From positions 1 through 22,503 of the IMG/VR virus record IMGVR_UViG_3300025660_000029: a DNA stretch of 22,503 nt. One strand, written 5' to 3'. The translations under genes and the position numbers were made by a program. A model generated the notes under the pieces. It saw only the letters and a program-made list of their open reading frames with translations. It was not told where the DNA came from and searched no databases. Shown here piece by piece: positions 1,156 through 18,800 of the stretch; within the stretch, counting starts at the first letter, position 1; each line of letters begins with the position of its first letter. The stretch is from a virus.

Positions 1156-4100
1156 ATGCCGCCTTCTGCGAATGACATCGTCGTCCGGGTCATACCGGAC
1201 ATCCAGGCTGCCGGGGGTTCGATCTCCTCGCAGTTCAAGAAGGTCGCCAACCCGATCAAGAAGATCGTCGGCGACGCCCTTGGGGAAGCCCTGGATACGG
1301 CGTGGTCCCCCCGTGCGCTTGGCAAGGTCCAGAAGAACCTCGCCAAGATCGAGGTGGAGGCGGTCAAGGCAAGGGAAACAGCTTCCATCAAGGCTGCCGC
1401 CATCGACCGCCGCCTCCGTAAGAAGCACCTCGGTGAGGATGAGAAGATCCGCCTCCAATCGGCCAAGAAAGAGGCGAATCTGGAGGCCAAGAACCTTGAA
1501 GACCGCCTGAAGAAAGAGGCTGGTGCGGTTTCCGCCGCCGCAAAGCGCAGCAAGGACGCTGAGACACAACTGAAGGCTATGGGCGCAGAGGTTTCTAAAC
1601 TCTCCTCCGCCTCCGCAGAACGCTTCGGAGAGTCCCTGGCCGGTGCGTTTGCAGACCTTTCCTCCGGGGATCTTGGGAACATGTCCGGTCTCATCAAGAA
1701 GATCGGTGAGGGCACGAAGAAGCAGGGCTTGAACGCACAGGCCAAAGCCGACACCGGTGAAGCGGGCAAGCTCATGGGCACCTTGGGCGGGTTCCTGACC
1801 AAGATCGGCCCTGCTCTGATCGCCATCGGGGCTATTGCTGGAGGGCTGGCCGCCATCGCCAAGCTCATCATGGACGTAGATGAGAAGGCGAAGGACCTCA
1901 ACAAGACCATGCTCGAATCTGGGCTGACCGGGTTGGAGGTGGCGGGTGCTCTCGATGATGTGGAGGCCGGGTTCACCAAGATCCGCAAAGCGTTCACGGA
2001 CTTCAACCTCAACCGGATCTGGGGCACAACGCCAGAGGACCACATCAAGATCCTTGGGGCCTACTCTGAAGCGGGGTTCACGTTCAAGGAGGTCACGAAG
2101 GGAGCCGCCAATGCCGCAGAGGAGATGGAACGACTCCAGGATGCCACCATCATGACCCTCAAGTATTCCAAGCTCCTCGGTGCAGGCACGGACGAGATGG
2201 CTGGCAACATCGGCATGTGGATGGAGGAGTTGGGCAAGGACATGAAGTCCGTAGAAGAAGGACTCGGGGCGATCACCATCGCCGCACGGGGGTCGGGCTT
2301 CGGCGTGAAGCGCTTCTACGGGATGGTCCTACAAGCTACCTCTGGCATGTCCATGTACAACGTCCGGTTGGCTGAGACCGCTGCCATGCTGTCCATGATC
2401 ACCAAGATCCTCGGCCCGCAGCGTGGCGGGGCCTTTGTTGAGGGGCTCACCAAGGGCTTCAGCGAGGAAGGCTACCAGGACAGGATGAAGCGGACCAAGC
2501 TTGTTGGATCGGGCAAGGTCAAAGATGAACTAGGGGGGGCCGCAAGCCGGATAGGTAAGGACCTGCTGCGGGGGATGGATACAGGGAAGATCGCGGGGCT
2601 ACAGGCGGCAGCCAAGGCCGCAGGGTTGGACGTGAACCTGGTAGGCAAGTCCACAGAGGACCAGACCAAAGCCCTTGTCGCTGCCCTGACTACAGCGGGG
2701 CCGAAGAAGACCGCCGCCTTTATTGCGGATGCGGAAGAGCATATCGGGTTGGATCAGACCAGGAAGCTGGAAGACCTGGCGAAGCTCTCAGCAGGGATCA
2801 AAGGCGGCCTTGCTGACGTGGCTCACGCTATGAGCGGGTTCGATATGGGCGGCAAGCTGGCGATCCTGCTCAACGGTGTGGCAGCCAAGTTCTCTAAGCC
2901 GATCTACGAATTGCAGGGGCTGGAGCGTGTGGGTGCCGCCGAAATGATGGGCATGTCCGTTGAGCAGTTCGATGAACTCCAGAGGATCAGCGGACGCCTG
3001 CACAGCAACTTTGAGAACACACAGAAGCAGGCCAAGCGAGATGCTGCACAGGGAAAGGAATCCTCCGAAGCTGTCATCAAGCAGCAGATCGAAACGCAGG
3101 GCATCTTCGCAGAGGGTGGCAAGGTTTGGGCTGCCATTCTGGATCAGGACGGGGAGATCGCACGGGACGAGAACGGCAAGATCATCAAGGAAGAGATCAA
3201 GAATGTCGGGGACTACATGCAGACACAGGGCAAGCTCTTGGAGCAAGCCGTGGCGTCTGAGTTGGACGAGCAGACCCGGCTGTCCGTGAAGATCGCTTCC
3301 GCAACCACGGCGATGAGCCACACGATGAGCGTCGGGGTAGCCTCTGTTCTGGAAGGCATCTACAGTGCGATCACCTCCATCAAGGAATGGCTGTTCGGGG
3401 ATAAGGACGAGAAGGTTGTCGCTGAAGTTGTCGACCGGGCACTTCAGGGGGTCGAGAAGAGTCTTCGGGAGGGCCAAGAGGCTGTCCGCATGTCGGAGGC
3501 TTTGATCGATTCGTATCGGGACTTGATGCAGGCGGACCCCAAGAACAAGGCCAAGCACAAGAAGGACCTGGAGCTAGAAACGGCGGCCCTTGCAGCGATG
3601 CAGGCACAAGTAGCGGCGTACACGGCGCAGAAGGAGTCCCTGCGAGGTGAAGGGTATATAGGGAGTAAGCCCGCCGGTTGGTCCAGTACCGAGTGGCAGA
3701 CACAACGGGGGAAGATGCTCAAGGGTATCGCATCCGGTGGCAGGGAGGACCCAATGGCTGCGGGACAGAGCCTCCAGTCCATGTCTGTTCAGCATGCCGG
3801 GATGGCCTCACAATGGGGTCCTTTGGTTCAGAAACTGGCCTCCCAGGGCAACCGTAAGGCCCAGGAGGCAGTGTCGGGCATGGAATACATCCCGGGGGCA
3901 GAGATCCCGACCCCGAAGGGAGGCTGGACAGCCCCCATGGAGTGGAAGAAAGAGGACCTGACCATGTTGGCGGAGGCCCTTGGGGTGGGGTTCCAGCAAC
4001 AGTGGCTCACCCCGATTGCGGACATGCAGGGAGAGGTGTTCCAGTTCCTTGTGAAAGGTAAGGGGACCAAGATCGAAGGGCAGGGAGCGGAAGCTGTGGG

Positions 4101-4701
4101 TGAGTCCGCTTTCGGGGAAGCCTTCTTGAAGGACGCCGGGGAAGGGACGGAGTACCAGGCCGCCCTACTCAGGTTGGAGGAGCAGAAGGAATCCCGCAGG
4201 TCGGTTCGCCGGGGGGAGTTCAAGGCCGACACACAGGACGCTACGAAGACGGGAGTCCTAGCGGCCATGGAGGACATCGAAAACCAGAAGAAGAAGGAGC
4301 AGGCCAGCCGGATAGGGGCATCACTCAGGGCAATCACAGACGGCGGGTCCCAGGCTTACTGGGAGGAGGCTGCAGAGGCCCTCATGAAGGGTCAGATGTC
4401 CGACGAGGTGAGGGCAACCTTGTTGCCACACAAGGGCCGCATCGGTGAGTTGATGGGGAACACGAACATCCCGGGTTTGCTGGGGGGCAAGACGGACGAC
4501 ATGGTGTTGCAGATCGGGGCTGGCGGCGTGAAGTTCGCACAGCGGGTCGACAACAACGACGTCGGTGTGTTCGCCAAGCCTGGAGGGGCCATCTCCAAGG
4601 GCGGCGCTGGCGGTTCCGTCAACGTGTTCCACCTTTACAACGACGGCCCTGGCGTCATGAAGTCCATCGAGAAGGCCCAGCGGGCCGGGGTTCTGGGTTA
4701 A
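1156..4701 (+). CDS. Tape measure-like tail protein
   Basis: This 1181-residue protein starts at an ATG with GGAG six bases upstream. Residues ~50-140 are Lys/Glu/Ala-rich and look coiled-coil (for example EVEAVKARETASIKAAAIDR). A hydrophobic Gly/Ala-rich segment follows at about 216-239 (KIGPALIAIGAIAGGLAAIA), then long, mostly helical Ala/Lys/Glu-rich sequence. The C-terminus ends in HLYNDGPGVMKSIEKAQRAG, a tail of the kind seen in tape-measure proteins. Size, helical composition, a single internal membrane-like segment and position before hub and spike genes all fit a tape measure. Such proteins sit in the tail tube, set its length and are ejected with the DNA. At the usual rule of about 1.5 angstrom per residue, 1181 residues would span roughly 180 nm (inference). 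I see no lytic transglycosylase or peptidase motif in it, unlike some tape measures. A run of seven G at 2532-2538 stays in frame. Confidence 0.82.
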   Translation: MPPSANDIVVRVIPDIQAAGGSISSQFKKVANPIKKIVGDALGEALDTAWSPRALGKVQKNLAKIEVEAVKARETASIKAAAIDRRLRKKHLGEDEKIRLQSAKKEANLEAKNLEDRLKKEAGAVSAAAKRSKDAETQLKAMGAEVSKLSSASAERFGESLAGAFADLSSGDLGNMSGLIKKIGEGTKKQGLNAQAKADTGEAGKLMGTLGGFLTKIGPALIAIGAIAGGLAAIAKLIMDVDEKAKDLNKTMLESGLTGLEVAGALDDVEAGFTKIRKAFTDFNLNRIWGTTPEDHIKILGAYSEAGFTFKEVTKGAANAAEEMERLQDATIMTLKYSKLLGAGTDEMAGNIGMWMEELGKDMKSVEEGLGAITIAARGSGFGVKRFYGMVLQATSGMSMYNVRLAETAAMLSMITKILGPQRGGAFVEGLTKGFSEEGYQDRMKRTKLVGSGKVKDELGGAASRIGKDLLRGMDTGKIAGLQAAAKAAGLDVNLVGKSTEDQTKALVAALTTAGPKKTAAFIADAEEHIGLDQTRKLEDLAKLSAGIKGGLADVAHAMSGFDMGGKLAILLNGVAAKFSKPIYELQGLERVGAAEMMGMSVEQFDELQRISGRLHSNFENTQKQAKRDAAQGKESSEAVIKQQIETQGIFAEGGKVWAAILDQDGEIARDENGKIIKEEIKNVGDYMQTQGKLLEQAVASELDEQTRLSVKIASATTAMSHTMSVGVASVLEGIYSAITSIKEWLFGDKDEKVVAEVVDRALQGVEKSLREGQEAVRMSEALIDSYRDLMQADPKNKAKHKKDLELETAALAAMQAQVAAYTAQKESLRGEGYIGSKPAGWSSTEWQTQRGKMLKGIASGGREDPMAAGQSLQSMSVQHAGMASQWGPLVQKLASQGNRKAQEAVSGMEYIPGAEIPTPKGGWTAPMEWKKEDLTMLAEALGVGFQQQWLTPIADMQGEVFQFLVKGKGTKIEGQGAEAVGESAFGEAFLKDAGEGTEYQAALLRLEEQKESRRSVRRGEFKADTQDATKTGVLAAMEDIENQKKKEQASRIGASLRAITDGGSQAYWEEAAEALMKGQMSDEVRATLLPHKGRIGELMGNTNIPGLLGGKTDDMVLQIGAGGVKFAQRVDNNDVGVFAKPGGAISKGGAGGSVNVFHLYNDGPGVMKSIEKAQRAGVLG

Positions 4702-4704
4702 GCC

Positions 4705-5472
4705 ATGCCGTTGGGACACCGCACCAATGTCACGCCCGTTTTCCGGTCGGCGTTCAAGTCGAAGGACGATGAGTTCGATACCAACAAGGGGACCAAGCCA
4801 GTCGTGTTCGACATCCTTGCCCCGGACCATGAGACCAGCATCCTCCCGGACGGCTTGGCGATGGTCCTGCACGTCAACCCAAGCTCGATGAGCCTCAATT
4901 ACACGAAGATGATTGAGCGGATCCAGACGAAGGGCGGCTTCGTTGAGCAGCACTGGGGCGAGGGCGTCGATGGGATCGACTTCAACATGGCCACGGGCGG
5001 GTTCAAGCGGGTCTTCTCTGGCCTGTCCAACGTGACGGGCGGCCCTGGTGCCTACGACGCCAAGGGCACCCGGCGGGAGACCATCGCCTACGACAAGTAC
5101 CTGGACATGCTGGCCTTGTTCCACAACAACGGCAGCGTCTATGACGCCTCCGGCAAGATCGTGTTCCAGGGCATGATCAAGATCACCTTCGACGGTGGCA
5201 TCTACTTCGGGTGGTTCTCAGACTTCAACGTCACGGAAGCCGCCGAGAAGCCTTACCAGTTTGCGTTGACTACCAAGTTCACCATCGACCACGAGGTCCA
5301 GCGGTTCCGCACGTTGCCTTACAACCGGGGCCTCGTACCCGGGGCCACAGGTATGCGTGACGTAGACCCCGCTTCGATTGTGCCCACGACCACCCAGATC
5401 ACGAATGAGCGGCTGGCAGGGAGCCTTGGCGGGCGTATCGGGGGCATTCTGTCCGGGGAGGGTCTGAAATGA
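4705..5472 (+). CDS. Baseplate/tail tube initiator-like protein, short paralogue
   Basis: This 255-residue protein starts at ATG 4705, three bases after the tape measure stop, with only a weak GGG upstream. Its core carries NPSSMSLNYTK (58-68), GGFVEQHWGEG (77-87), FHNNGSVYD (139-147) and DGGIYFGWFSDF (from 163), followed by a beta-rich stretch ending FALTTKFTIDHE. The same motifs in the same order recur in the next gene, so the two are paralogues (seen in the sequence). There is no signal peptide, membrane span or enzymatic motif. In T4, the paralogous gp48 and gp54 sit on the hub and start tail tube assembly. A tandem pair between tape measure and hub is consistent with that role, but the assignment is inference from order and pairing, not from a recognised domain. 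The stop overlaps the next start as ATGA. Confidence 0.82.
   Translation: MPLGHRTNVTPVFRSAFKSKDDEFDTNKGTKPVVFDILAPDHETSILPDGLAMVLHVNPSSMSLNYTKMIERIQTKGGFVEQHWGEGVDGIDFNMATGGFKRVFSGLSNVTGGPGAYDAKGTRRETIAYDKYLDMLALFHNNGSVYDASGKIVFQGMIKITFDGGIYFGWFSDFNVTEAAEKPYQFALTTKFTIDHEVQRFRTLPYNRGLVPGATGMRDVDPASIVPTTTQITNERLAGSLGGRIGGILSGEGLK
5455..5462 (+). promoter_or_regulatory. Strong ribosome binding site of second paralogue
   Basis: GGGGAGGG lies six bases before the ATG at 5469, inside the end of the preceding gene. With the ATGA stop/start overlap it fixes the start and suggests coupled translation. Confidence 0.65.
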
Positions 5473-6779
5473 CAGTTCCCATCGGACAACGAGGGGCTAT
5501 CCCTTCACCCAAGACGATCAGCGGGGACAACTACGGGGATCGACGCCTTCAGCAGGTTTCAAGGGCCGTAACGGACCCTCCGCCCCCGGACGCATTCAGC
5601 GGACTGAGGAGCGGACCCGAACTGTCCCTCGAGTTGGAGGCCGCACGGGCGACCCCGCTTTCGTTGGAGGACAGCCTCCTGCGGAACCTCTCCCCGTTCA
5701 TGTTCCAGGTGGAACCCCCGATGGTCTTTGGGGAGGACGCTGGGTTCACGGACAAGCCAAGGAACGCCTTCAACCCGGCCATGTACGGTGAGGCCGGGAA
5801 CACAGGCATCACGTCGTTCCAGGCGGCCCGTGCCAAGCTCTCCCAGACAGGCATCGTGGGGATCAGCTACCAGGCGCAGGGGGCTCAGGAGTACGTCACA
5901 CAGAACGCAGCCAGCAAGTCCTCCCAGACAGCCGCTGACGGTACGACTACGGACGTAGACGGCACAGGGGGCCAGAAGTACGGTCAGCCCGCTATCGCCG
6001 ATCTCTACACGGCTGTGGACATCGCCCAGCAGTTGTCGGCGATCCTCAACACGCCGCCGCTTGTCCTGTTGATCAACCCGCAGAACATGGCGATCACGTA
6101 CACGAAGATCCAGCAGTACCAGGACCGTTCCAGGCACGGCTACATCTTCCATGCGTGGGGCGAAGACCAGCCTAAGCTCTCCATCACTGCTCGCTGCGGT
6201 GCGTTCCTGTCCGGCGGGAGAGGCGTCCAGTTCGCCAGTAAGCGGGACTCGAAGGCGTGGCAGAACCTGATGACCGCCTTCCAATTCTACAAGAACAACG
6301 GGTACATCTACGACACGGTCGGCAAGTCGAACGCCCACCTGTTCGTGGGTGCCCTGTCCATTCACTACGACGGGTGGATCTACTACGGCAACATGGAATC
6401 CTTCTCCTACAGCTACGAGGAGGACAAGCAGAACGGTGGCATCGAGTTCACCATGGAGTTCACCGTGTCCTCCATGACGGACACGTCGCAGCCCTCCTTT
6501 GCCGTGACGCCTATGAAGTCCCCCACGGTGAGCCTGACCGACTCACGGTATATCAGGGATCCTTCACAGCGGGGGCACGAGGGGCCTGGGGTGTACTCGG
6601 TGGACCTGTTCACCAGCAAGCCCAACGTGTCCGTGCAGGGAAGAGTCATCGCCGGGTACAGCGGGGACACCGTGGACGTGGCGGAAGCAGAGCGTCCGAC
6701 GGAGATCAACCCCAGTTCAAACGGGTTCCAACCTCCTGAGACACAAGAGGAAACCGAAGTGGCACAGGTGGAGGTCTAG
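5469..6779 (+). CDS. Baseplate/tail tube initiator-like protein, long paralogue
   Basis: This 436-residue protein starts within the previous stop (ATGA) behind a strong GGGGAGGG site. Residues 1-~190 are an extra N-terminal region, Pro- and Gln-rich and probably partly disordered. The core repeats the motifs of the upstream gene: NPQNMAITYTK (203-213), GYIFHAWGED, FYKNNGYIYD (ending at 282) and DGWIYYG (301-307), then beta strands ending in MEFTVSSM. A roughly 90-residue tail rich in Ser, Thr, Pro and Glu closes the protein. It has no enzymatic motif or membrane segment. The shared core and tandem order suggest two similar rings stacked where the tail tube meets the hub, as gp48/gp54 do in T4 (inference). 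The N-terminal extension could contact the tape measure or wedge. The TAG stop shares its last base with the GTG start of the hub gene. Confidence 0.84.
   Translation: MTVPIGQRGAIPSPKTISGDNYGDRRLQQVSRAVTDPPPPDAFSGLRSGPELSLELEAARATPLSLEDSLLRNLSPFMFQVEPPMVFGEDAGFTDKPRNAFNPAMYGEAGNTGITSFQAARAKLSQTGIVGISYQAQGAQEYVTQNAASKSSQTAADGTTTDVDGTGGQKYGQPAIADLYTAVDIAQQLSAILNTPPLVLLINPQNMAITYTKIQQYQDRSRHGYIFHAWGEDQPKLSITARCGAFLSGGRGVQFASKRDSKAWQNLMTAFQFYKNNGYIYDTVGKSNAHLFVGALSIHYDGWIYYGNMESFSYSYEEDKQNGGIEFTMEFTVSSMTDTSQPSFAVTPMKSPTVSLTDSRYIRDPSQRGHEGPGVYSVDLFTSKPNVSVQGRVIAGYSGDTVDVAEAERPTEINPSSNGFQPPETQEETEVAQVEV
6770..6774 (+). promoter_or_regulatory. Ribosome binding site supporting the GTG start of the hub gene
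   Basis: GGAGG lies four bases before the GTG at 6779, which itself overlaps the preceding TAG stop. The next in-frame ATG (6818) has no comparable site, so the GTG is the likely start. Confidence 0.6.
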
Positions 6780-9700
6780 TGGGTATCGAGCATCGTCCAT
6801 ACGTCGGGACGTGGCAGATGGAGGGGCGCAAGCTCGTCCAGCACACCCCTGATGCCCTGGTCTACATTAACGGAGACCTGACGATCCCGGGTTGCCCCAA
6901 GTGCAACGGACGGATTGACATCCAGAAGTTCGTCACTGAGGTCTCCGTGGACGGGGGTACAGAACCTGGTGCGGCCTCTGCCAGCTTCACTATGTCCGTT
7001 CCGTTCGCCACCAACGAGTCCCTGTTCCGGGACGCCCGGGCGCTCATCCGCCCGGGCCTGGAGGTCACGGTCTACGAGCGGGGCTACTTCCCTGTGAAGG
7101 GCCTGTACTCGAATCTCGGGGATCCCCGTAACCTGGAGAACCCGCCCGAAGGTGGGGGTTTTGACGCCTCCGGCCAGGTGCTTGTTGAACAGGCGACCCT
7201 CGACGAGGACATGATCGCCAAGTGGAAGGGTCGGGGCATGGACGCCCTTGACCAGGGCGGCAGTGTCGGCGAGTCCGCCGTCTACAGTGCGGCGGCCATG
7301 GAGGTCGTAGAGCAGTACTGGCGGCAGAAGTACCCCGCAGGACGTGTGGAGGTGCGGAGCAGCTACCGGGGCGGTGAGGAATCCAACCACGGCACAGGGG
7401 CAGCCACCGACTACGTCGTCAAGACGGGCCAAGGCGGGGCCGAAGTCCCACCCGCAGAGGTCTGGGCCGGACAGAAGAAGCTCGCCGCTGATGGCAAGAT
7501 CCCCGACGGCGGTCACGGCATGTACGTGAACCCTAAGACGGGCAGGCGCACCTCCACGAACCACTATGACTACCGGGGCTCCTACGGCTTCAAAGAGGGT
7601 GAACCCTCGATGTCGTGGATGCGGATCGATACGAACGGGGACGGCAAGGCCGACATGTCCACGGAGCGCAGTTGGGGTGGGGGCACCGGGGGCGCTATCG
7701 GGTGGCTCAACACCAACGGCATGGGGGAGCAGGCCGACTACTTTAATGGTGCGTGGGGGTCTGACAGCGGACTCCCCGGCACTGACGGCATCCCCTCCCT
7801 CGACCAGGTGATGAGCACGGCCACGGAACAAGTAGACGGTACGATGGGTCCTCCGGCCCCCGTGACTCCCACGTCGGCGGACTTTGAGCCCTCCTTGCTG
7901 GAGGAGCTAGGGCTTGCAGGGCAGGGGCTTGAGGACGTGCTGGCCTACCCCTACTACCACGTCTTCCATGGGGTGGTGACACAGGTGGGGACGGCCCGCT
8001 CTGGCCCGACCAAGACGATCAGCGTCCAGTGTGCCTCGATGCTGCACTTCTGGCAGTACCAGAGGGTGAGTACGAACGCCTCCCTGTTCGGTGCCCGACC
8101 TCAGAACTCAAAGCTCAAGGTGAGCCTGGTGGGCCACAACTTCACCGGGATGCACCCCTACGAGATCATCTACACGCTCCACAACGACGTGGGCGGTGCT
8201 GCGGCGGGTGTCTCGTGGGCACTCTCACAGTCCACGAACCAGGACGCATCAGGGATCACGGGTGACTCCCTGTTCAGCCTCAACTTGAAGTACTGGGAGC
8301 AGCGTTTCCAGAACCGACAGGTGAAGCTCCGGTTGCACGGTGCCAGCGGAGAGTTGTTCAACGCCGCACAGGCCGATTGGCTGTCCCGCACGAAGAGCAG
8401 TGAGCTTACAGGCTTGATGAAGCATAGGTTCAACCCCACAGGAGGGTCGGCCAACAAGGGCGTGATGCAACAGTCAGAGGCCCTGGGCTTGCGTAGCTCC
8501 GGCCTCCTGGACGCCCTTCAGTTCTCCCGACGGTCAGCCCCCGGTGGGGTGGACGGCACGTACCCCCGGTTTGAGATGAACCTCGGGGAGATGCAGGCTT
8601 TCACGGCGGACATAGGGAACTACGGGCAGGTCCAACTGTTCGAATCCACCTACGAGTCCAAGCACGACATCGCCGTTGCCGTCTGTGAGATCACAGGCTT
8701 TGAGTTCTTCCAAGACGTCGACGGCGACTTCGTGTTCAAGCCGCCGATGTACAACCTGGACACCTCGTCGAGCCGGGTCTATCGGATCGAGGACATCGAC
8801 ATCATCTCGATCAACTTCGACGAGAAGGAGCCCGAGTTCACTTACGTCACAGGCAAGGGGCCGGGGTTCAAGAACACCCTGGGCACTGGCCTGGAGGGCG
8901 AGTGGGGCGTTCAGGGACAGTACATCGATTACCGGCTGGTGGCCCAGTTCGGATGGCGGCCCCTCGACTTTGAGGTCGCCTACTTCAACGACAGCAAGAG
9001 CCTGTTTTTCGCCTCCGTCAACCGTATGGACATCGCCAACGCAGCGATCAACTCGGCGAGCGTCACGATCCCGTTGCGCCCGGAGTTGAGGCCCGGTTAC
9101 CCGGTCTTCATCCCGTACCTGGACTGCTTCTACTACTGCAACAGCTTTGCCCACAGCTTCAGCGTGGGCGGCCAGTGTACGACGGCCCTTCAGTTGATCG
9201 GCAAGCGGGCCAAGTTCTACGCCCCGGGCTACCCGAACAAGACGGGGATAGAAGCCATTGACCTGTCGAACACGTACCTCCCGCAGAAGCCCTTGGAGGT
9301 CCTGGACGGGAACAACAGCCCGAGGCTGTCTGGGTTCCCGAACGTCGTGATGGCGCTCGACCCCACACAGATCAACCCGCTCTTCTTCGTTGTGGGTGAG
9401 GACATTGACGACATCGCCAATGATTTCACGCTCCAGGCGTTGCTCAACATGGCGGTCAAGGTGGGGGCCCTGAACACGGACGACCCCTCCAACCCTGGCC
9501 CGAAGTATTGGATCAAAGTGGATGCGACCCGGAACAAGTACTTCTGGTTTGAGGGGCCCTCCGGGTATGCGGCGTCCGCCACGTCCACATCGAAGCCTGA
9601 CGGTGCCATCGATCTCAAGGCGGCGGCGGAGGGGTACGAGGCCGCACAGAAGAAGATCACCAAGGCGGTAGACACCAAGGTGGGGGAGAAAGCTCCCCTG

Positions 9701-12007
9701 GACTATGCCCTCACCCTCAAGCGGGCGGAGCAGCGCTCCTTGAACGTGGACGACCCGGACGACAAGAAAAAGAAGGCGGCCCTGAAGCGTCAGAAGGCGC
9801 TCAAGAAAGAGATCACCGCCATCGAGACCAAGCTCAAGAAGATCGACGTGGCTTACGACCAGGCCGCCCGGGCCTACGGGGACAAGATCGGGGACAGCAC
9901 GAAGACAGGGGTTGACGACCTGTTGAAGCTCGTCCGTAGCGTCGGCAAGGGCTACCTGACAGACCCGCAGTTTGGTGGCCAGAGCATGGGGGATTCCACC
10001 TCCACGACCAACCTCCTCGACATGTTGGGCGACAAGAAGGCGGTCTTTACGAACGGCCAGTTGCCGGGTTCCTACCGCTACTACTCTGCATCGCACCCGG
10101 ACCCGCAGCACCAGGGCCAGATGGAGCCCAGTTTCCACGTCAAGAAGGCTCAGGACGAGCAGGCTCTCAAGTTCAAGGCCGCCTACCTGGAGTCTATCTG
10201 GCAGGGAGAAGAGGTCACGGGCTATGTGGATCCCCCACAGGCACGGGCCGGTACGAAGCAGCCGGAGGCCGAGTTCGGCATTGTCCGGCCTACACGGGGC
10301 ATCCGTGTCCTGACAAACAACCCGGTCGCCCCGCAGGGTGAAGTTGTGCCCACGAGCGAGGTCCGGGAGTTGATGTTCGCCACGCACGACGTGGCTCACG
10401 TCCGCAAGGCTACCAGCACGAAGAAGCGGGCTGAGAGGTTCGAGTGGACGAACACGATGCAGACGGCCTTGCAGAACCAGGCCACGAACAACAAGGACTC
10501 GCAGACGACCCGGACCACAGTCGGGGACGTGTTCACGGACTGGTTCAACGCCACGATCCGGGACAGTTGGGTCCCTACGTCCACGGAGGCCGCACAAGCA
10601 GAGTTGTATGACGCTGTGCCGGGGTCCGAGACCGCTCCAAACTTCCCGACGCTGATCGCCCCTGAGTCCATCACGATTCTGGGATCCGCCATCGACGTAG
10701 ACGAGGTCATAGATGACCATCAGTTCAGCGGGGCCGGGGACCAGGAGGGCACAGCCCTGTACCCGGGAGCCCCTAAGGACTCCTTGGACACCTTCTGGAA
10801 CAAGGCCGCCAAAGCCTATGGGACGGCCATCTGGGGCCTCTTGGTGGTGGCACGGGGGCAGTGGGAGAACGATATGGAGGCTCAGGGGTTCTCCATTGAG
10901 GATCGCTTGACCGTCCTGACCGCTTTCACGACGGCTTTCAACAGTAAGATCGGGGCAAAGTCCCCGCCGACGCCCAAGAAGAAGGGCAGCCCGAAGGCGT
11001 TGCCTGGTTCCTTGCGGAAGATGATGCAGTCCCCGGTGTTCCCTGTGTCCGATGCCTCTGGTTACGAGGTCATCGGCTCCTACCGTTACGGCAGGGACCT
11101 GGACATCGCCCCTGACGGTGCGTGGGCAGCCCTGGCAGAGCAGGACCCCTTGCAGTTCCTCAGTTCCGCTATGGTCGCCCAGGTTGTCGACGTCCTGGTG
11201 AAGGGCAAGAAGCTCTACGAGGACGATGTGACCATCCTCAAGGACGGCACGAAGAAGGTCGTCCGCAAGGAGATCGGCGGGTCGACCGCAGCCACTGAGG
11301 TGGAGCGCCGTGTCCTGGCGCAGTTGCGGGCCCAGTTGACGGACGAGCAGATCCTGGACCTGGGCTTTGCCATCAAGACGGGCGACCCGAACGTCCTCCA
11401 GTTGAACATGGCCAACTTCCTGGCCTCCAAGGCCAAGGACGGGGTCATGAAGCTCCCCGTTCAGAACGCTGCCCTCTCTCTGGCCGATCTGAACCTCCAG
11501 GTAGGGCAGAACGTCTGCGGTTGCCGCATGGCCTCGGCGGACGTGCTCCTGGCTGCCGCCGGTCAGGAACAGTTCGTACAGTTCATCGAGCCGGGTGTCA
11601 TGGTTCCGCAGGGGTACGGTGATGGGACGCAGGACAAGGCTACTCAGTGGCTAATCTCCACGGCGGCGCAGTCCTCTGTGGACTGGCAACTCTCACAGGA
11701 CGCTCTTCGGGGAGTCCTGCCGGACAGGTCCCCCGTCAGCCTCCTGGAGACCATCCAGAACCTCGGCGACCAGTTTGCGGAGGGGCAGGCTAACGTGGAC
11801 AGGGCTGTTGAGGACGTGAAAACGGCTGCCAGTGCGGTAAAGCAGGCGGGCCTGGACGTAGGGGAGCACGCCAAGGACGCCTTCTACGATAGTTGGAGAG
11901 AAGGGGACACCCCGGAGCAGTTCAACGCTGAGGTTGAGGAGATCCGAAAGCAACAGGCAGCCAAGGCCGCCCAACCTGGCGGTGCTGATGAAGAGAGGGA
12001 ACGCTGA
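6779..12007 (+). CDS. Giant baseplate hub protein with inserted M15-type peptidase domain
   Basis: This 1742-residue protein starts at GTG 6779. Residues 1-~110 look like the first hub barrel and include a CPKC pair (C39, C42). Residues ~110-385 interrupt it and carry an M15-type peptidase signature: HGTGAATD (H204, D211), GGHGMY (244-249) and NHYDYRG (H262, D264), then an EF-hand-like loop at 284-296. The barrel seems to resume at YPYYHVFHGVVTQVG (~390). The region to ~812 ends in RPGYPVFIPYLD...GGQCTTALQLIGKR, resembling the close of the gp27/gpD hub fold. About 930 residues follow that I cannot assign, including a Lys/Glu-rich helical part (~946-1044), GSYRY motifs at 1097-1101 and 1433-1437, and a C-x-C (1580, 1582). 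It should form the central hub ring above the spike, with the peptidase cutting cell-wall peptides during infection. Hub and peptidase calls rest on motifs; the function of the C-terminal half is unknown. Confidence 0.85.
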   Translation: MGIEHRPYVGTWQMEGRKLVQHTPDALVYINGDLTIPGCPKCNGRIDIQKFVTEVSVDGGTEPGAASASFTMSVPFATNESLFRDARALIRPGLEVTVYERGYFPVKGLYSNLGDPRNLENPPEGGGFDASGQVLVEQATLDEDMIAKWKGRGMDALDQGGSVGESAVYSAAAMEVVEQYWRQKYPAGRVEVRSSYRGGEESNHGTGAATDYVVKTGQGGAEVPPAEVWAGQKKLAADGKIPDGGHGMYVNPKTGRRTSTNHYDYRGSYGFKEGEPSMSWMRIDTNGDGKADMSTERSWGGGTGGAIGWLNTNGMGEQADYFNGAWGSDSGLPGTDGIPSLDQVMSTATEQVDGTMGPPAPVTPTSADFEPSLLEELGLAGQGLEDVLAYPYYHVFHGVVTQVGTARSGPTKTISVQCASMLHFWQYQRVSTNASLFGARPQNSKLKVSLVGHNFTGMHPYEIIYTLHNDVGGAAAGVSWALSQSTNQDASGITGDSLFSLNLKYWEQRFQNRQVKLRLHGASGELFNAAQADWLSRTKSSELTGLMKHRFNPTGGSANKGVMQQSEALGLRSSGLLDALQFSRRSAPGGVDGTYPRFEMNLGEMQAFTADIGNYGQVQLFESTYESKHDIAVAVCEITGFEFFQDVDGDFVFKPPMYNLDTSSSRVYRIEDIDIISINFDEKEPEFTYVTGKGPGFKNTLGTGLEGEWGVQGQYIDYRLVAQFGWRPLDFEVAYFNDSKSLFFASVNRMDIANAAINSASVTIPLRPELRPGYPVFIPYLDCFYYCNSFAHSFSVGGQCTTALQLIGKRAKFYAPGYPNKTGIEAIDLSNTYLPQKPLEVLDGNNSPRLSGFPNVVMALDPTQINPLFFVVGEDIDDIANDFTLQALLNMAVKVGALNTDDPSNPGPKYWIKVDATRNKYFWFEGPSGYAASATSTSKPDGAIDLKAAAEGYEAAQKKITKAVDTKVGEKAPLDYALTLKRAEQRSLNVDDPDDKKKKAALKRQKALKKEITAIETKLKKIDVAYDQAARAYGDKIGDSTKTGVDDLLKLVRSVGKGYLTDPQFGGQSMGDSTSTTNLLDMLGDKKAVFTNGQLPGSYRYYSASHPDPQHQGQMEPSFHVKKAQDEQALKFKAAYLESIWQGEEVTGYVDPPQARAGTKQPEAEFGIVRPTRGIRVLTNNPVAPQGEVVPTSEVRELMFATHDVAHVRKATSTKKRAERFEWTNTMQTALQNQATNNKDSQTTRTTVGDVFTDWFNATIRDSWVPTSTEAAQAELYDAVPGSETAPNFPTLIAPESITILGSAIDVDEVIDDHQFSGAGDQEGTALYPGAPKDSLDTFWNKAAKAYGTAIWGLLVVARGQWENDMEAQGFSIEDRLTVLTAFTTAFNSKIGAKSPPTPKKKGSPKALPGSLRKMMQSPVFPVSDASGYEVIGSYRYGRDLDIAPDGAWAALAEQDPLQFLSSAMVAQVVDVLVKGKKLYEDDVTILKDGTKKVVRKEIGGSTAATEVERRVLAQLRAQLTDEQILDLGFAIKTGDPNVLQLNMANFLASKAKDGVMKLPVQNAALSLADLNLQVGQNVCGCRMASADVLLAAAGQEQFVQFIEPGVMVPQGYGDGTQDKATQWLISTAAQSSVDWQLSQDALRGVLPDRSPVSLLETIQNLGDQFAEGQANVDRAVEDVKTAASAVKQAGLDVGEHAKDAFYDSWREGDTPEQFNAEVEEIRKQQAAKAAQPGGADEERER
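7346..7588 (+). other. M15/DUF882-like peptidase domain within the hub gene
   Basis: The domain covers about residues 190-270 of the hub protein. It contains the H-x-x-G-x-A-x-D motif (H204 to D211), then GGHGMY and H-x-D followed by YRG (H262, D264). In the M15 family the first His, the Asp and the last His bind zinc, so H204, D211 and H262 are the predicted ligands. The order and spacing match the short DUF882-like branch, where the end reads roughly G-x-Y then H-x-D-x-R. Members cut peptide bonds in peptidoglycan stems; the exact bond is not predictable here. Confidence 0.75.
7628..7666 (+). other. EF-hand/dockerin-like calcium-binding loop in the hub protein
   Basis: Residues 284-296 read DTNGDGKADMSTE. 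D1, N3, D5, G6 and the acidic residue at 9 match the calcium loop D-x-N-x-D-G-x-x-D of dockerins and EF-hands. The terminal acid falls at position 13 rather than 12, so binding is plausible but unproven. It follows directly on the peptidase domain. Confidence 0.45.
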
Positions 12008-14433
12008 TGGCTGACACGATCACCAGAAGGCGGCCCGTTTCGGTCTTGGACACGGTTTCTCGTGGGTCCATGCTCACGTCGACCGCCAAGGCCCGAAAGG
12101 ACAAGGAGAAGGGTCGCCCGGAGTCCAACTGGGGTCTCGGTATCGCCGAGGTCGCCAGCATCGACTACGAGGAGTTCTACGTCACCCTGCGGACGATCAC
12201 GGGTACGTCCGACACCTTTGAGCGTGTGCCCGTCCCGATGACCTTCCCGGGTGCCGGTGCCCGCCACTTCCTCGGGGCGATGCCCGAAGTCGGGGACCTC
12301 GCCGTCGTAGACTGGATCGCCGAATCCACCTCCCGCTCTGAGATGACTAAGACCCCGGTCATCGTGGGTTGGGCCGTCCCTGGCGTCTGGCCGGGGCGTG
12401 ACTGGCTGACCACGTCGGACTTTGAGATCGACGAGTACGACATGGATGCGCCCAAGGAGCGACAGGCTTCTCCGGCGCTTCGCCGCATCCGCCACAAGCT
12501 CCGGCACATTCAACCTGGCATGATCGTGGGCTCCTCGGCTCAGGGTGCCGACATGGTGCTGGACGAGGGTGTCCTGTTCTCCAACCGCAGGGGCAACGAG
12601 TTCCGTTTGAGGGACCAGGACCAGGCGGCCATCACCCGTGCGCTACAGAAGTTCGACGTGCTGGCCGGTGCTCGTGTCTATGCCGGGATGGTGCAGCGTG
12701 ACGCCACCTTCCTCGCCCCGGACATGGTGAGCGACGGCAGGATCTGGGACGGACCTCTCCAGGCTATCGGCAACATGCCGGTCGCCGAGTGGGACCTCCC
12801 GAACGATCTCATGAACAAGGAGGGCTTCCTCACCCCGGCCCGTCCCATGCAGCGGTCAGCCCTCTCAGCCGAGGACGGCTACCTGGGCCGGACGGGAATC
12901 CAGTACGAAGGTTCCATCGACCCGTACCAGTTCCTCCAGTTGGGCGGGATTGTGGACGAAACCGGGTACGTGGTGGGCGACCGCTTCGTGTCCGACGCCA
13001 TCTACGGTGGCAAGTCTCTGTTCAGAGTGGCCTCACAGCGGCAGGACAACGCCGTCCTGGACCCGGACGCTCCGACCCTGACCGAGTACCGCATCGAGGT
13101 CACGCACACCTCTGACGGCAGGCTGCCTGTTTCAGAGCAGACCGACGGTTTCGACTCCGAACGGCTGCCGCAGCAACCTGGCGAGGTGCCCGGGCCGAAC
13201 CCCAATGCTCCCTTCATGGAGTTCGTTATGGGGTCCGTTGTGGGCAACGACCCCTACTCTCAGATGGGCCGTTCCATGTACGGGCTGCCCATCAAGGCTG
13301 TGGTCTTTGATGGGCCAAACGCCAACCCCCGCCTGGAGGCGGCCAACGTCACGGTCGCTGGGTCAGGTGTAAGTCCGACTCCGCTGGGAGAGCAGGCGGC
13401 GTCTCTGTTCCGTATCAACCCGCCGTTGCCGGACGGGGCACCGCAGACCTTTGTGTCCTACAACAAGAAGGGCCAGCTTAAGGCGGCCATCGGTGGGCCG
13501 GTCAACGAGAACTCTGCCGAAGTCTACATGCAGGGCGGCCTCAAGCTGGGCATCGGTGGAGCTTTTGAGTTCCTGCTCCAGGGACACACGCACATCGGCA
13601 CCCTGTCCAAGTCCAGCCTGTTCCTGACGGCGGAGGACGGCGCTGTCCGTATCTTCGGGGCCGGACCTATCCGGGACCAGTCCGCAGAGGTAGAGCGCAC
13701 GACGGGAACCGGGAACGGAGAGGGCGACCTTCCCTCCGTGGACATCGAGGCGCTCACTAACATGCGCCTCAAGGCCGGACAGGCCGTGTTCATCCAGGGT
13801 GACCGCCTTGCGACGAGCACCACCTCTGCCAGTATCAGGGCGCACCAGGACCTGACCCTCGACGGCGTCAAGCGGGTCGCCATCACGACTGAGCAGTTCC
13901 AGAAGACGGTGGCCGCCAAGGCGTCCGAGTCCTACAGCGGCCCGAAGCTGTTCCTTCCCACGTTCGCCCCGTTGCACGAGCGCACCTACACGCCGCCTTA
14001 CCCGGGCATCGTGTGTGAGGCCGTGACCTACGTGTTCGGCGACCGGGAGGAGACCTTCTACCTCGGGAACCACAAGACCACGATGCTCATCGGCAACATG
14101 TCCTATGAGACGAACCTCGGGACGTGGAAAGCCCGGGCGGTCACCTCTCAGATGGAGATGGGACCTACCGGGATCACGGCCTCCGCTCTGGTCGGGAACG
14201 TGTCCATGCAGGCCACAGCAGGCACGCTGACGGTGCAGGGGCTGGCAGGGGCCAACCTGGTAGCTACCGCAGGGCAAGCACAGGTGAGGGGCGCTACGGG
14301 CGTGTACCTGGGCGCTCCTCTGTACGGACCTGACGCTGGCCCCATAATCTGCGCGGGGTCCTTGGAGCCCTTCACGAATCTCCCCTTCGCAACTTGGGGT
14401 TTGGGAGCTAAGGCTCATGTCATCGGTAGTTAG
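12007..14433 (+). CDS. Baseplate central spike protein, gp5/VgrG-like
   Basis: This 808-residue protein starts at an ATG that overlaps the hub stop by one base (TGATG), with GAGGGA six bases upstream. Residues ~42-125 look like the OB-fold of gp5/VgrG spikes: GLGIAEVASID, then FPGAGARHF, MPEVGDLAVVDWI and PVIVGW, the usual order of barrel strands. A middle region of unclear fold follows (~130-450). From about 480 the chain becomes repetitive and strand-rich, for example SSLFLTAEDGAVRIFG, NMRLKAGQAVFIQG and, near 727-773, GNVSMQATAGTLTVQGLAG. This is typical of triple-stranded beta-helix needles. The predicted role is the trimeric membrane-piercing tip below the hub. No lysozyme motif is visible between barrel and helix, unlike T4 gp5; the cell-wall enzyme is in the hub instead. 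The family call is from pattern and position. Confidence 0.84.
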   Translation: MADTITRRRPVSVLDTVSRGSMLTSTAKARKDKEKGRPESNWGLGIAEVASIDYEEFYVTLRTITGTSDTFERVPVPMTFPGAGARHFLGAMPEVGDLAVVDWIAESTSRSEMTKTPVIVGWAVPGVWPGRDWLTTSDFEIDEYDMDAPKERQASPALRRIRHKLRHIQPGMIVGSSAQGADMVLDEGVLFSNRRGNEFRLRDQDQAAITRALQKFDVLAGARVYAGMVQRDATFLAPDMVSDGRIWDGPLQAIGNMPVAEWDLPNDLMNKEGFLTPARPMQRSALSAEDGYLGRTGIQYEGSIDPYQFLQLGGIVDETGYVVGDRFVSDAIYGGKSLFRVASQRQDNAVLDPDAPTLTEYRIEVTHTSDGRLPVSEQTDGFDSERLPQQPGEVPGPNPNAPFMEFVMGSVVGNDPYSQMGRSMYGLPIKAVVFDGPNANPRLEAANVTVAGSGVSPTPLGEQAASLFRINPPLPDGAPQTFVSYNKKGQLKAAIGGPVNENSAEVYMQGGLKLGIGGAFEFLLQGHTHIGTLSKSSLFLTAEDGAVRIFGAGPIRDQSAEVERTTGTGNGEGDLPSVDIEALTNMRLKAGQAVFIQGDRLATSTTSASIRAHQDLTLDGVKRVAITTEQFQKTVAAKASESYSGPKLFLPTFAPLHERTYTPPYPGIVCEAVTYVFGDREETFYLGNHKTTMLIGNMSYETNLGTWKARAVTSQMEMGPTGITASALVGNVSMQATAGTLTVQGLAGANLVATAGQAQVRGATGVYLGAPLYGPDAGPIICAGSLEPFTNLPFATWGLGAKAHVIGS

Positions 14434-14464: not shown

Positions 14465-15274
14465 GTGGTTGGGGTAAAGATGGGCGCACGAAAATTCAAA
14501 GTAGACGAGATGGTGGGGCAGAAGTTTGGGTTCCTGACACTGAAGGGTCCCGCAGATCCCGTTAAGGGCCGAGCACAGGCGACTTTCCTGTGTGGTTGTG
14601 GGGCTGTTACCGTGAAGGGCCTATCCCGGGTGGTGAGTGGGCACACAAAGAGTTGTGGTTGCGCCAGGGGTGCCTCTTGGAGGGCACTTACCTTGGAAGA
14701 GATGAGAGGCAAGCGGTTTGGCAGGCTGGTGGTGGTCGGAAGGAATCCTACAGGAACTTCTGTAGGTGGGACTCGTTGGGATTGTCTTTGTGATTGTGGG
14801 AATGGGAAGACAGTGGCCCTTTCAAACCTGCACAATGGCACGACCCAGAGTTGTGGATGTTTTGCATTAGAATCCTCCTCTAGGAACGGGAAGAAAAGGA
14901 AAGGGGTACGAGCGCATAACTGGAAAGGTGTGGGGGATATTTCCGCTTCCTTTTGGGGTCAGATCCTGAATGGTGCTCAGACTCGAAATTTGGCGTGTAC
15001 GATCTCACACCAATATGTGTGGGATTTGTTCCTGCAACAAAACAGGAAATGCGCTCTGACAGGGGTTTCTCTTCGATTCCCTCTGATAGGGGAGCGTTCC
15101 GGTACCGCATCCCTTGATAGGGTAGACAGTACGAAGGGGTACGAGGCCGGGAACGTGCAGTGGTTAGACAAGCGTGTTCAGCAAATGAAATGGAACTTGA
15201 AACAAGAAGAATTCTTGGCTCTTTGCCGTGCTATCACAGAGCATGGAGCGAAGGGTCACATTGTGGGGGCGTAA
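14465..15274 (+). CDS. HNH endonuclease with two zinc-ribbon-like DNA-binding repeats (probable homing endonuclease)
   Basis: This 269-residue protein starts at GTG 14465 (ATG 14480 would give 264). Two similar modules lead: GQKFGFL...CGCG...SGHTKSCGC (18-66) and GKRFGRL...CDCG...NGTTQSCGC (82-132), each with paired Cys typical of phage DNA-binding ribbons. A basic linker (GKKRKGVR) leads to an HNH-type C-terminus: KCALTG (195-200), ASLDRVDSTKGY (215-226), GNVQWL (229-234) and MK (241-242). Phage genes of this build are usually freestanding homing-type nucleases that cut DNA to spread. The SLDR branch has Asp where the first HNH His would be. GC is about 50% in two 60-base lines I counted, against 63% in a hub line, and the codons are more A/T-rich, which marks it as a newcomer between tail genes. 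Its TAA stop shares a base with the next ATG. Whether it still cuts is unknown. Confidence 0.88.
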   Translation: MVGVKMGARKFKVDEMVGQKFGFLTLKGPADPVKGRAQATFLCGCGAVTVKGLSRVVSGHTKSCGCARGASWRALTLEEMRGKRFGRLVVVGRNPTGTSVGGTRWDCLCDCGNGKTVALSNLHNGTTQSCGCFALESSSRNGKKRKGVRAHNWKGVGDISASFWGQILNGAQTRNLACTISHQYVWDLFLQQNRKCALTGVSLRFPLIGERSGTASLDRVDSTKGYEAGNVQWLDKRVQQMKWNLKQEEFLALCRAITEHGAKGHIVGA

Positions 15275-15883: not shown

Positions 15884-18800
15884 ATGGGATTCTCCTTCGA
15901 CGGTTTCGTACTACGGCCTCCCCGCATCTCGCCGGTCAACTCCAAGTACACGGGCGAGCCGGACAACGGCGTGATCCGTGTCCCGATGGAAGTCCCCCCG
16001 GTGTACGACATCAGCGGGACTTCGCCGGACTTCATCGACGCTTACGCCGATCAGTACAGGGCCGCCGTCCTGGATGGCCCTGGCTCAAGCCCGCAGGAGT
16101 ACCTGTTCTGGGCTCAGAACACGGCGCAGCTTGCTGTGGCCGATGATCCTAGCTGGTGGACGGAACTCGGACAGGGAACCTTCCCGGCTGGCAGCCTCTC
16201 GGTTCTGGACACGACACCGGCTCCACAGAAACCGCCCCTGAAGGGCGCTGGGTGGTTCTATGACGGCACGAGTAGGGTTGTCGTTGCGGATGACGGCGGG
16301 CGTAGCCTGGGGGCTATCCTGTGGCTTGTGGTGGCCCGTGGGGACGTAGACGACTACGACGATGAGGGCTGGGTAGACCCGGATAACCCTGCCTCCCCTC
16401 GTGCGGGAGATAACCCGTACCTGGCCTTTGAGATCGCCACGGGGGATCAGAACCCTGTGGCTGGGACGGCGGACCTGACAGCGGCGCAGTTGACGCTGCT
16501 GGACGGTGGCCTTTCGCAAGAGCGTGGTGACCAGATCATGGGCGTCCGGTACACGGTCGGCACCGTCAAGATGTGGTGGACCCGCAACGACCGCTACGAG
16601 ACCCGGTTCGGGTGGAGCGACACCACTCAGCGGTGGGAACCCTACAAGGGTTCGTCGCCACGGGACCTGGGGCGGCTGTACCTCGACCAGACCTACAAGA
16701 TGGACCCCAAGGTGGCGAACCTGCCGGTGAACTCGGAGCTTCCGGGTACGTCGGTGGTGGACGCCTACGCCATGATCCGCCTGGGTCCGTCCCCGAGCCT
16801 TGCCCTGCCGGTGGAGGACATCGTTGTCCGGCCCAACACGGAGGTGGCGGGTGGGTTCGACTTCACCGCTTACCCGGACTTCAACGCTGTTATGGGGCAG
16901 ACCAACGGCATCCTGGAGTTCAACCCGAGCTTCGCCGAGCAGCACGCAGGCAAGACGGTCTGGTACTGCTTCAAGACCTTCACAGAGACCGATGAGGGCC
17001 TCGTGGGGCAGCTTCTGGACGCCCTCACGGATCCTCTGTTCCTTTCGCCGATCCCCGGGCCGACGGACAGGCCCCTGCTTCGGTTGGGGAACCGCACGTA
17101 CCTGACGCCGACGCTCTTGGACACCGACGCTGACCAGGACGCTCACGGGGATCCCGCAGAGGGTGAGGTGTCCGTGTCGCTGTCCACTGGCCGCATCCGG
17201 TTGGCCCCTGGCGACATGGCCAAGTCCGACCCGGACGATGCGGCGGCCTTCGACAAGCATTTCTTCGGCGAGGACGTCATCTATGACGGGGTGGCCCTCA
17301 ATCAGGTGCCGCAGCCCACGAAGGCCCCGGTGCAGCTTGTGGACGACGCAGGCGTGCCCTCAACGGCAGGCTCAGGGGACCTGTTCATCCCGCTGGCGGT
17401 GACGCTGCCCAACGACAACTACTCCACCGACCTGACCCGCAGAGGGCTGGGTGTCTCTGGCATCATCAACGCCCCGGACGAGACGGGGGCGCTTCCCATC
17501 TCCCCGGGCACAGTCCCGGGCATCCGGCCTGGTGGCGACACGCTGACAGGCGTTTGGACGGGGATGGTGCGGCAGGTTGAGGACGGTGTCGGTGACACCA
17601 TCATCTTCGCCACGCAGAGTGCGGCACAGATCCTTGTCGTAGATCGGGAGCAGGATCTCCCTGATCGATCCTACAAGGTGGCGAAGGGGACGGCTTACGT
17701 GTCCCGGCAGGCCCACGGTGCGGGCACACTGTCCAAGGTCCAGTTGAGCCGTGACGACTTGCGGGACTGGGACGGCGAGGCCGTCTACTTCTTGCAGGCG
17801 TCGCTGACGCCCGCCACGTACACGAGGCTGCCCCGTGTGCTTTCCCGGAACCGGGATCTGTTCCGGTTCGATGGCACCGAGATCCTGTACTTCAACGTCG
17901 ACACCGTTGACTACACCTGGCTGGCCTCGGCCCTTCCGGCGGCGTCCTTCTACACGCCGGATCAGGTAGCGGCGAGCATCAACACGGCGATCACCGGCAC
18001 GGGTAGCGCCTACGCCTTGAATGGCCGCCTCGTCATCGAGGGCGACGACACTGTGGAGATCGGCTGGGGCACCGCCACGGACAAGGATCTCTCCGGGGCA
18101 GCCATCCTGGGCTTCATGCCTGGTTGGCGTGTCCAGGATGGCACTACCAACTGGCTGACGGACTCCGGGGTCTCCTTGGGGCTCAACCGCAGCCCGGTGA
18201 ACATGGCGAGGACGAACGCCACGCCGGACCTGGCCGCATCTGACAGGATGGAGGACAGGACACTCACAAAGAACATCCAGGCGACACCGTTCTTTTTCTT
18301 GGACGCTCCGCCCTTGCAGGACGTGGCCGGGATCGATGACGGGGTGTTCTTCAACCTCCAGTCCATGATCACTGAGGGAGAGAGCGTCACCATCGTGAAC
18401 CGCCCTCTCCAGCACTACTCCGACATCATCCACCGCTTCGGGCAGCGGAAGTTCGACTGGGTGGATGACGACTCCATCGAGGGCAACGTGGAGAGGTCCA
18501 CGTCCGTTCTCGGGTTCGGGTTCAGCAACATCGTGCCTGAGTCGATGCTTGGCGCACCTGGCATCGGCGGTGGGTTCCTGATCTCCCCCGACGGGGGCCC
18601 CTCTGTGTTCCAAGACTCAGACACAGATTACGTGCTCCCGGACGACGGCATCTCCGGGCAGGCCATCCTGGTGGAACGGTTCGGAGCCCGTGCCATGTCG
18701 GGCGCTCAGGGCGCTATGACGGCGGGGAGCACCACGTTCTCAGACCCCGACGGGGACTTCACGAACGTGCAGCCTGGATACCGCCTGAAGGTGCTGTCCG

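Follow-up and report, generated by a model that had tools for sequence, protein, structure and literature searches.

Does the baseplate hub of this phage carry its own cell wall enzyme, nested within the hub fold? We analysed IMG/VR virus record IMGVR_UViG_3300025660_000029, and refer to the whole stretch of 22,503 bases as the window. On the + strand, the open reading frames (ORFs) read as a run of tail genes. A tape-measure-like ORF (1156-4701), with a role assigned from gene order, precedes two ORFs (4705-5472 and 5469-6779) placed by order and by weak matches in relatives. The latter pair share the motif NPxxMxxxYTK...HWGE and look like paralogues. In other loci, genes of this region have weak matches to Phage_tail_tube_init (PF23980). 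The hub ORF (6779-12007, + strand) has a GTG start and encodes 1742 amino acids. Next is the probable central spike gene (12007-14433, + strand). Between this and the downstream tail genes, ORF 14465-15274 encodes cysteine-containing repeats. By eye, its C-terminal stretch resembles an HNH-type homing endonuclease; Pfam gave no match. A very long ORF starts at 15884. The order of tape measure, small tail genes, hub and spike is the same in the annotated phage Tunturi_5.

Searches of the window proteins against Pfam and PHROGs gave no convincing match. Hence, the question was settled via relatives. An IMG/VR scan with the window hub recovered relatives at 42-64% identity. Three wider scans brought the collection to 91 distinct hubs (core less than 95% identical), with the distant Tunturi_5 hub kept apart. 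The carriers are mostly uncultured, often jumbo, phages. No hub relative was found in the GTDB genomes searched. Among isolate phages, the hub retrieved only LR745208 (L009), an uncultured phage of 485 kb, and the distant Tunturi_5; the insert alone retrieved nothing. In Tunturi_5, gp254 (L010:11647-14298) is deposited as 'tail protein with lysin activity'. It has no barrel insert and no Pfam lysin match.

A segment nested in the first barrel of the hub

We modelled hub residues 1-842 with AlphaFold from an 81-row alignment, to which hubs with non-M15 inserts contributed their flanks only. Mean pLDDT was 72, indicating moderate confidence; an earlier model from 7 sequences (pLDDT 37) was set aside. 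The best Foldseek matches in the PDB were hubs of contractile injection systems and phages. These were Streptomyces CIS, Milano, JBD30, Mu gp44 (1wru) and T4 gp27 (1k28), with E down to 3.3e-6 and probability 1.00. The protein was thus assigned, by these matches and by its relatives, to hubs of the gp27/Mu gp44/VgrG type. A sequence profile of hubs lacking the insert found no match in the PDB.

The first part of the N-terminal barrel covers residues 1-106 (6779-7096) and ends with the strand VYERGYFP. The inserted segment follows (residues 107-389; 7097-7945). The hub then resumes with residues 390-842 (7946-9304), a conserved core on which both the family search and the tree were based. In empty relatives, the barrel anchors GYFPVKG and YPYYHVFHG are separated by only 14-45 residues. 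For example, the empty site of LR745208 reads GYFPVKG-MTTSNAPTAVGGINLGDIPQ-YPYYPVFHGVVT. Here, GYFPVKG and YPYYPVFHG lie 23 amino acids apart, compared with 284 in the window. Wherever both anchors could be located, they were 14-45 or 238-342 amino acids apart, with no intermediates. The 91 distinct hubs divide into 59 that are empty and 32 that are filled. Since natural relatives bridge the same anchors with 14-45 residues, the insertion is real. In a joint alignment, empty hubs retain the post-insert core and every one of the 105-106 N-terminal positions, and are blank or nearly so at the 130 positions of the catalytic region. An assembly artefact was ruled out; a 100% identical hub occurs in two other IMG/VR contigs, and inserts are present in more than 30 distinct hubs.

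In the AlphaFold model, strand 95-101 stops just before the insert and strand 392-408 starts after it. Hence, the insert occupies a loop of the first barrel. The original prediction had described a hub-like sequence that seems to break near residue 110, within the N-terminal barrel, and to resume near 390. All of this was borne out: the hub assignment by the structural matches, the boundaries (about 107 and about 389/390) by the empty relatives, and the nesting by the 59 relatives that keep both flanks and lack the segment.

An M15/Hedgehog-type domain among unrelated enzymes

The predicted catalytic core spans residues 162-283 (7262-7627, + strand). Its modelled elements are a helix (162-184), strands (190-194 and 209-216), a second helix (225-237) and three further strands (245-250, 260-264 and 279-283). 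Most of the core has pLDDT between 65 and 90. The order of strands and helices, read as secondary structure from the model and not from coordinates, fits the Hedgehog/DD-peptidase fold. Just after the core (7625-7665) is DTNGDGKAD, which resembles a calcium-binding loop and is missing in most relatives.

In an all-against-all BLAST comparison, the window insert was linked with 14 other inserts. We built an HMM from 11 distant M15-like inserts, leaving out the window and its two closest relatives. This matched the core of the window insert at E=2.8e-17; the best score among 200 shuffled controls was 0.15. Inserts of the M15 set match HH_signal above the cut-off (L007 at 5.4e-6, another at 3.6e-5) and Peptidase_M15_3 below it (0.002 and 0.0006). 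Against the PDB, a profile of the set found Sonic hedgehog (Shh; E 1.2e-4), with SxHyxGxAvD over HYEGRAVD, a stretch that includes two of the Shh zinc ligands. One relative's insert matches an endolysin family (phrog_894; 7e-8).

The predicted zinc ligands are H204 (7388-7390), D211 (7409-7411) and H262 (7562-7564), numbered as in the original prediction and correct against ORF 6779-12007. H204 and D211 fall in SxHxxGxAxD, the stretch aligned with Shh. H262 lies in NHYDYRG, where the H-x-D motif also supplies a candidate catalytic acid, D264 (7568-7570). All four residues are invariant (14/14). The pattern of H-x6-D plus a distal H was found in 14 sequences; L042 alone has 3 extra residues directly after the D in the alignment. 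H-x-x-G-x-A-x-D followed by H-x-D is the motif of PF08291 (M15_3) and PF05951 (DUF882). We infer that the domain binds zinc and is catalytic.

Two results count against the M15 reading. First, the window's own insert gave no direct family match in Pfam (E<=1) or PHROGs. Second, M15 members such as VanX and the T5 endolysin usually have a D/E-x-x-H acid, and the column at -3 of the third ligand is variable in the 14-member alignment. The M15 call made originally therefore stands on the Sonic hedgehog, HH_signal, M15_3 and endolysin PHROG signals and the invariant triad, and falls short in the direct Pfam match and the conserved acid. Assignment of the insert to the M15/Hedgehog superfamily is supported at the level of sequence.

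Other hubs hold different enzymes at the identical site. That the M15 domain is just one of several fillings, and that some relatives have none, goes beyond the original prediction. Matches were to SLT (L034, 2.2e-19; L044, 4.7e-6), to the phage tail lysozyme PF18013 (Phage_lysozyme2; L033, L035, L048 and L049, down to 2.5e-11) and to Amidase_2 (L082, 3.5e-6). By BLAST, the inserts form eight sets without mutual similarity, although the three lysozyme/SLT-like ones may be distantly related to each other. According to curated models, the slot holds a minimum of three catalytic folds that are unrelated (M15/Hedgehog, lysozyme-like and Amidase_2). There are probably more; curated models cover only part of the lytic types. 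SleB-like (L005, L020, L032 and L055) and NlpC/CHAP-like (L073) are labels given by eye. No family was found for the SleB-like set, L073 or L006, and comparison of the SleB-like set, L073 and L031 with the PDB gave no meaningful match.

The contents of the slot bear on what the window domain does. It could be catalytically dead and instead bind the wall or sugars; Hedgehog, for which no peptidase activity is known, likewise retains its zinc. That Hedgehog is the best PDB sequence match, and that the D/E-x-x-H acid is missing, would fit. We consider this improbable since very divergent members all retain the three ligands together with the aspartate of H-x-D, and one relative's insert matches a phage endolysin family. 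Furthermore, catalytic domains fill the identical slot in relatives, pointing to lysis as the selected function. A different proposal is that the enzyme acts during assembly, as a processing protease for the hub or a further tail protein, and not on the host wall at entry. M15 enzymes are peptidases, and cleavage by a built-in or linked protease is known for some phage structural proteins. However, glycan-cutting and amidase domains at the identical place cannot serve proteolytic maturation, and we regard this proposal as very improbable. The reading we prefer, with a probability of about 0.83, is that the segment is a virion-associated peptidoglycan hydrolase. Specifically, it would be a zinc-dependent endopeptidase of M15_2/M15_3 type (Hedgehog/DD-peptidase fold), nested in the first-barrel loop of a gp27-type hub, in an exchangeable socket.

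We also looked for lysins outside the slot. In the window, Pfam found nothing in the spike ORF (12007-14433) at E<=1, in keeping with the initial view that the spike has no wall enzyme. The gene at the spike position of L046 has a weak Phage_base_V match. The C-terminal regions of 50 empty hubs held a glucosaminidase in 3 and an M23 peptidase in 1, and those of 29 filled hubs held no lysin. This difference is too small to carry weight. Long empty hubs, such as L009, L054, L058 and L065, can have extra segments of about 200 amino acids at two other places in their C-terminal half. In the LR745208 hub (L009:13750-17055), one such segment (residues ~1013-1135) matches glucosaminidase PF01832 (1.1e-7). 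The gene right before the empty hub of L051 (L051:3547-5580) is enlarged to 678 amino acids and includes an M15_3 domain (1.1e-9), as though the adjacent tail protein had taken over the enzyme. For most empty hubs, neither the hub itself nor the neighbouring genes examined yielded a lysin, which counts against our preferred explanation. Hence, full complementarity between the slot and other lysins is unsupported.

Exchange of enzymes between conserved adaptors

Irrespective of enzyme type, most inserts share an upstream adaptor, G(M/L)(Y/F)SNLxxP, and a downstream one, PSLLEExGLxGxxIExxLAYPYY. In the window, these are VKGLYSNLGDPRNL (7097-7138, + strand) and the PSLLEELGLAGQGLEDVLA region (7883-7945, + strand). 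Altered adaptors occur in a small divergent group (L034, L042, L044, L048, L049 and L073).

We built a tree of the post-insert hub core (IQ-TREE, C20 mixture) for the 59 empty and 32 filled hubs. Empty and filled states change 2 times on this tree, compared with a mean of 26.5 after shuffling. All labels together change 19 times. Hence, enzyme type changes about 17 times, an estimate because several forks in the filled part lack support. Well-supported branches alone force at least 7 changes of the M15 label. With the N-terminal barrel added (41 rows), 18 changes were counted. Constraining M15 carriers to one clade was rejected (p-AU 3e-4). A single ancestral enzyme that diverged was ruled out by the unrelated folds and the rejected M15 monophyly.

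Among the supported sister pairs, those that differ in their enzyme include L005/L012, L032/L041, L006/L035, L055/L082 and L034/L073. In a comparison of L029 (lysozyme-like) with L004 (M15), the flanks are 88% and 80% identical and the inserts about 23%.

Filled hubs occupy one part of the tree, with one empty clade (L039, L043, L085 and L087) nested inside. The linker of this clade measures 14-15 amino acids; hardly any other empty hub has one so short. The clade reads as a loss of the insert, with the direction of gain and loss dependent on the root. The scanned neighbours of L039 and L085 held no replacement lysin.

The history that we consider likely is that the slot had about one origin and one loss. 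Unrelated peptidoglycan hydrolases (M15, lysozyme/SLT-like, Amidase_2, and probably SleB-like and NlpC-like) would have been swapped some 17 times between conserved adaptors. Presumably, this adapts the tail tip as hosts, and with them the chemistry of the wall, change. Independent filling of the socket in many lineages would account for inserts that are mutually unrelated, and several deep forks of the filled clade lack resolution. This is unlikely, since the filled hubs lie together on the tree, with the 2 state changes given above. In addition, adaptors common to most inserts of different type do not fit into the 14-45 amino acid linkers of most empty hubs.

Proposed role and known systems

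T4 gp27-type hubs are trimers. Hence, three enzyme copies are expected, by analogy. The hub trimer would project these sideways, beside the channel, on flexible adaptors. Upon contraction of the tail, the hub would be driven through the outer envelope. The enzymes might then cut peptide cross-links of the wall around the tube. The socket of related phages holds lysozyme/transglycosylase-like, amidase or other domains, which would have been swapped by recombination between the conserved adaptors. Alternatively, the socket is empty, with a lysin sometimes located elsewhere. MepK of E. coli is named as an LD-endopeptidase alongside other M15 peptidases (PMC10864386). Cross-link cleavage is suggested for the hub insert for this reason; the peptide cross-link as its target is our guess by analogy.

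The wall-cutting enzyme of a contractile tail is, hence, not tied to the spike. It can be a plug-in module in a hub loop, swappable without disturbing the hub. Sister pairs, with a near-identical hub and a different enzyme, are natural domain-swap experiments. They make tuning of the entry lysin to host wall chemistry directly testable and mark an insertion point that tolerates many folds.

Several known systems share parts of this arrangement. Like the T4 gp27-gp5 device, the window combines a gp27-type hub with a wall enzyme at the tail tip. However, the T4 lysozyme is in the spike, gp5; the enzyme described here is in the hub, with none detected in the next gene. Peptidase M15_3/DUF882 proteins of the YcbK/MepK type (PF08291, PF05951) share the motif and the Hedgehog/DD-peptidase fold (PMC3927764 for YcbK). 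Unlike the window domain, these are free-standing bacterial cell wall enzymes; the window domain has diverged too far to be matched directly by Pfam. Evolved Dit proteins are tail-ring proteins that likewise have a functional module inserted in a loop (PMC9437275, PMC9692632). There, the modules are carbohydrate-binding and lie in Dit, rather than being enzymes in the hub. Two Herelleviridae hubs, Deep-Blue Gp189 and Vp4 Gp110, have demonstrated wall-lytic activity and an NlpC/P60 domain at the C-terminus (PMC11406892). These are myophage hubs with their own lytic domain, as predicted for the window, but the domain is appended C-terminally rather than nested.

The closest parallel is Tal of Brussowvirus (SW13, TP-778L). 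In Tal, a glucosaminidase and a CHAP domain lie between sub-domains 3 and 4 and are predicted to project from the axis (PMC9437275). Tal and, by prediction, the window hub hold peptidoglycan hydrolases that are joined by linkers and nested inside a gp27-like hub, trimeric in Tal and probably so in the window. The insertion site differs, since the window insert begins at residue 107, between strands 95-101 and 392-408. Brussowviruses are streptococcal siphophages with two lysins in Tal, whereas the window hub has a single M15 domain in its first barrel. In addition, nearly all that is known of the window's phage family comes from metagenomes, and its members have exchanged one enzyme type for another. 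Searches of the open-access literature turned up neither an M15 domain within the first hub barrel nor the recurrent replacement of a lysin by an unrelated one at a single site of a hub. Hence, a lysin nested in a gp27-like hub is already known from Tal; the M15 type, the first-barrel site and the repeated exchange of enzymes appear to be new.
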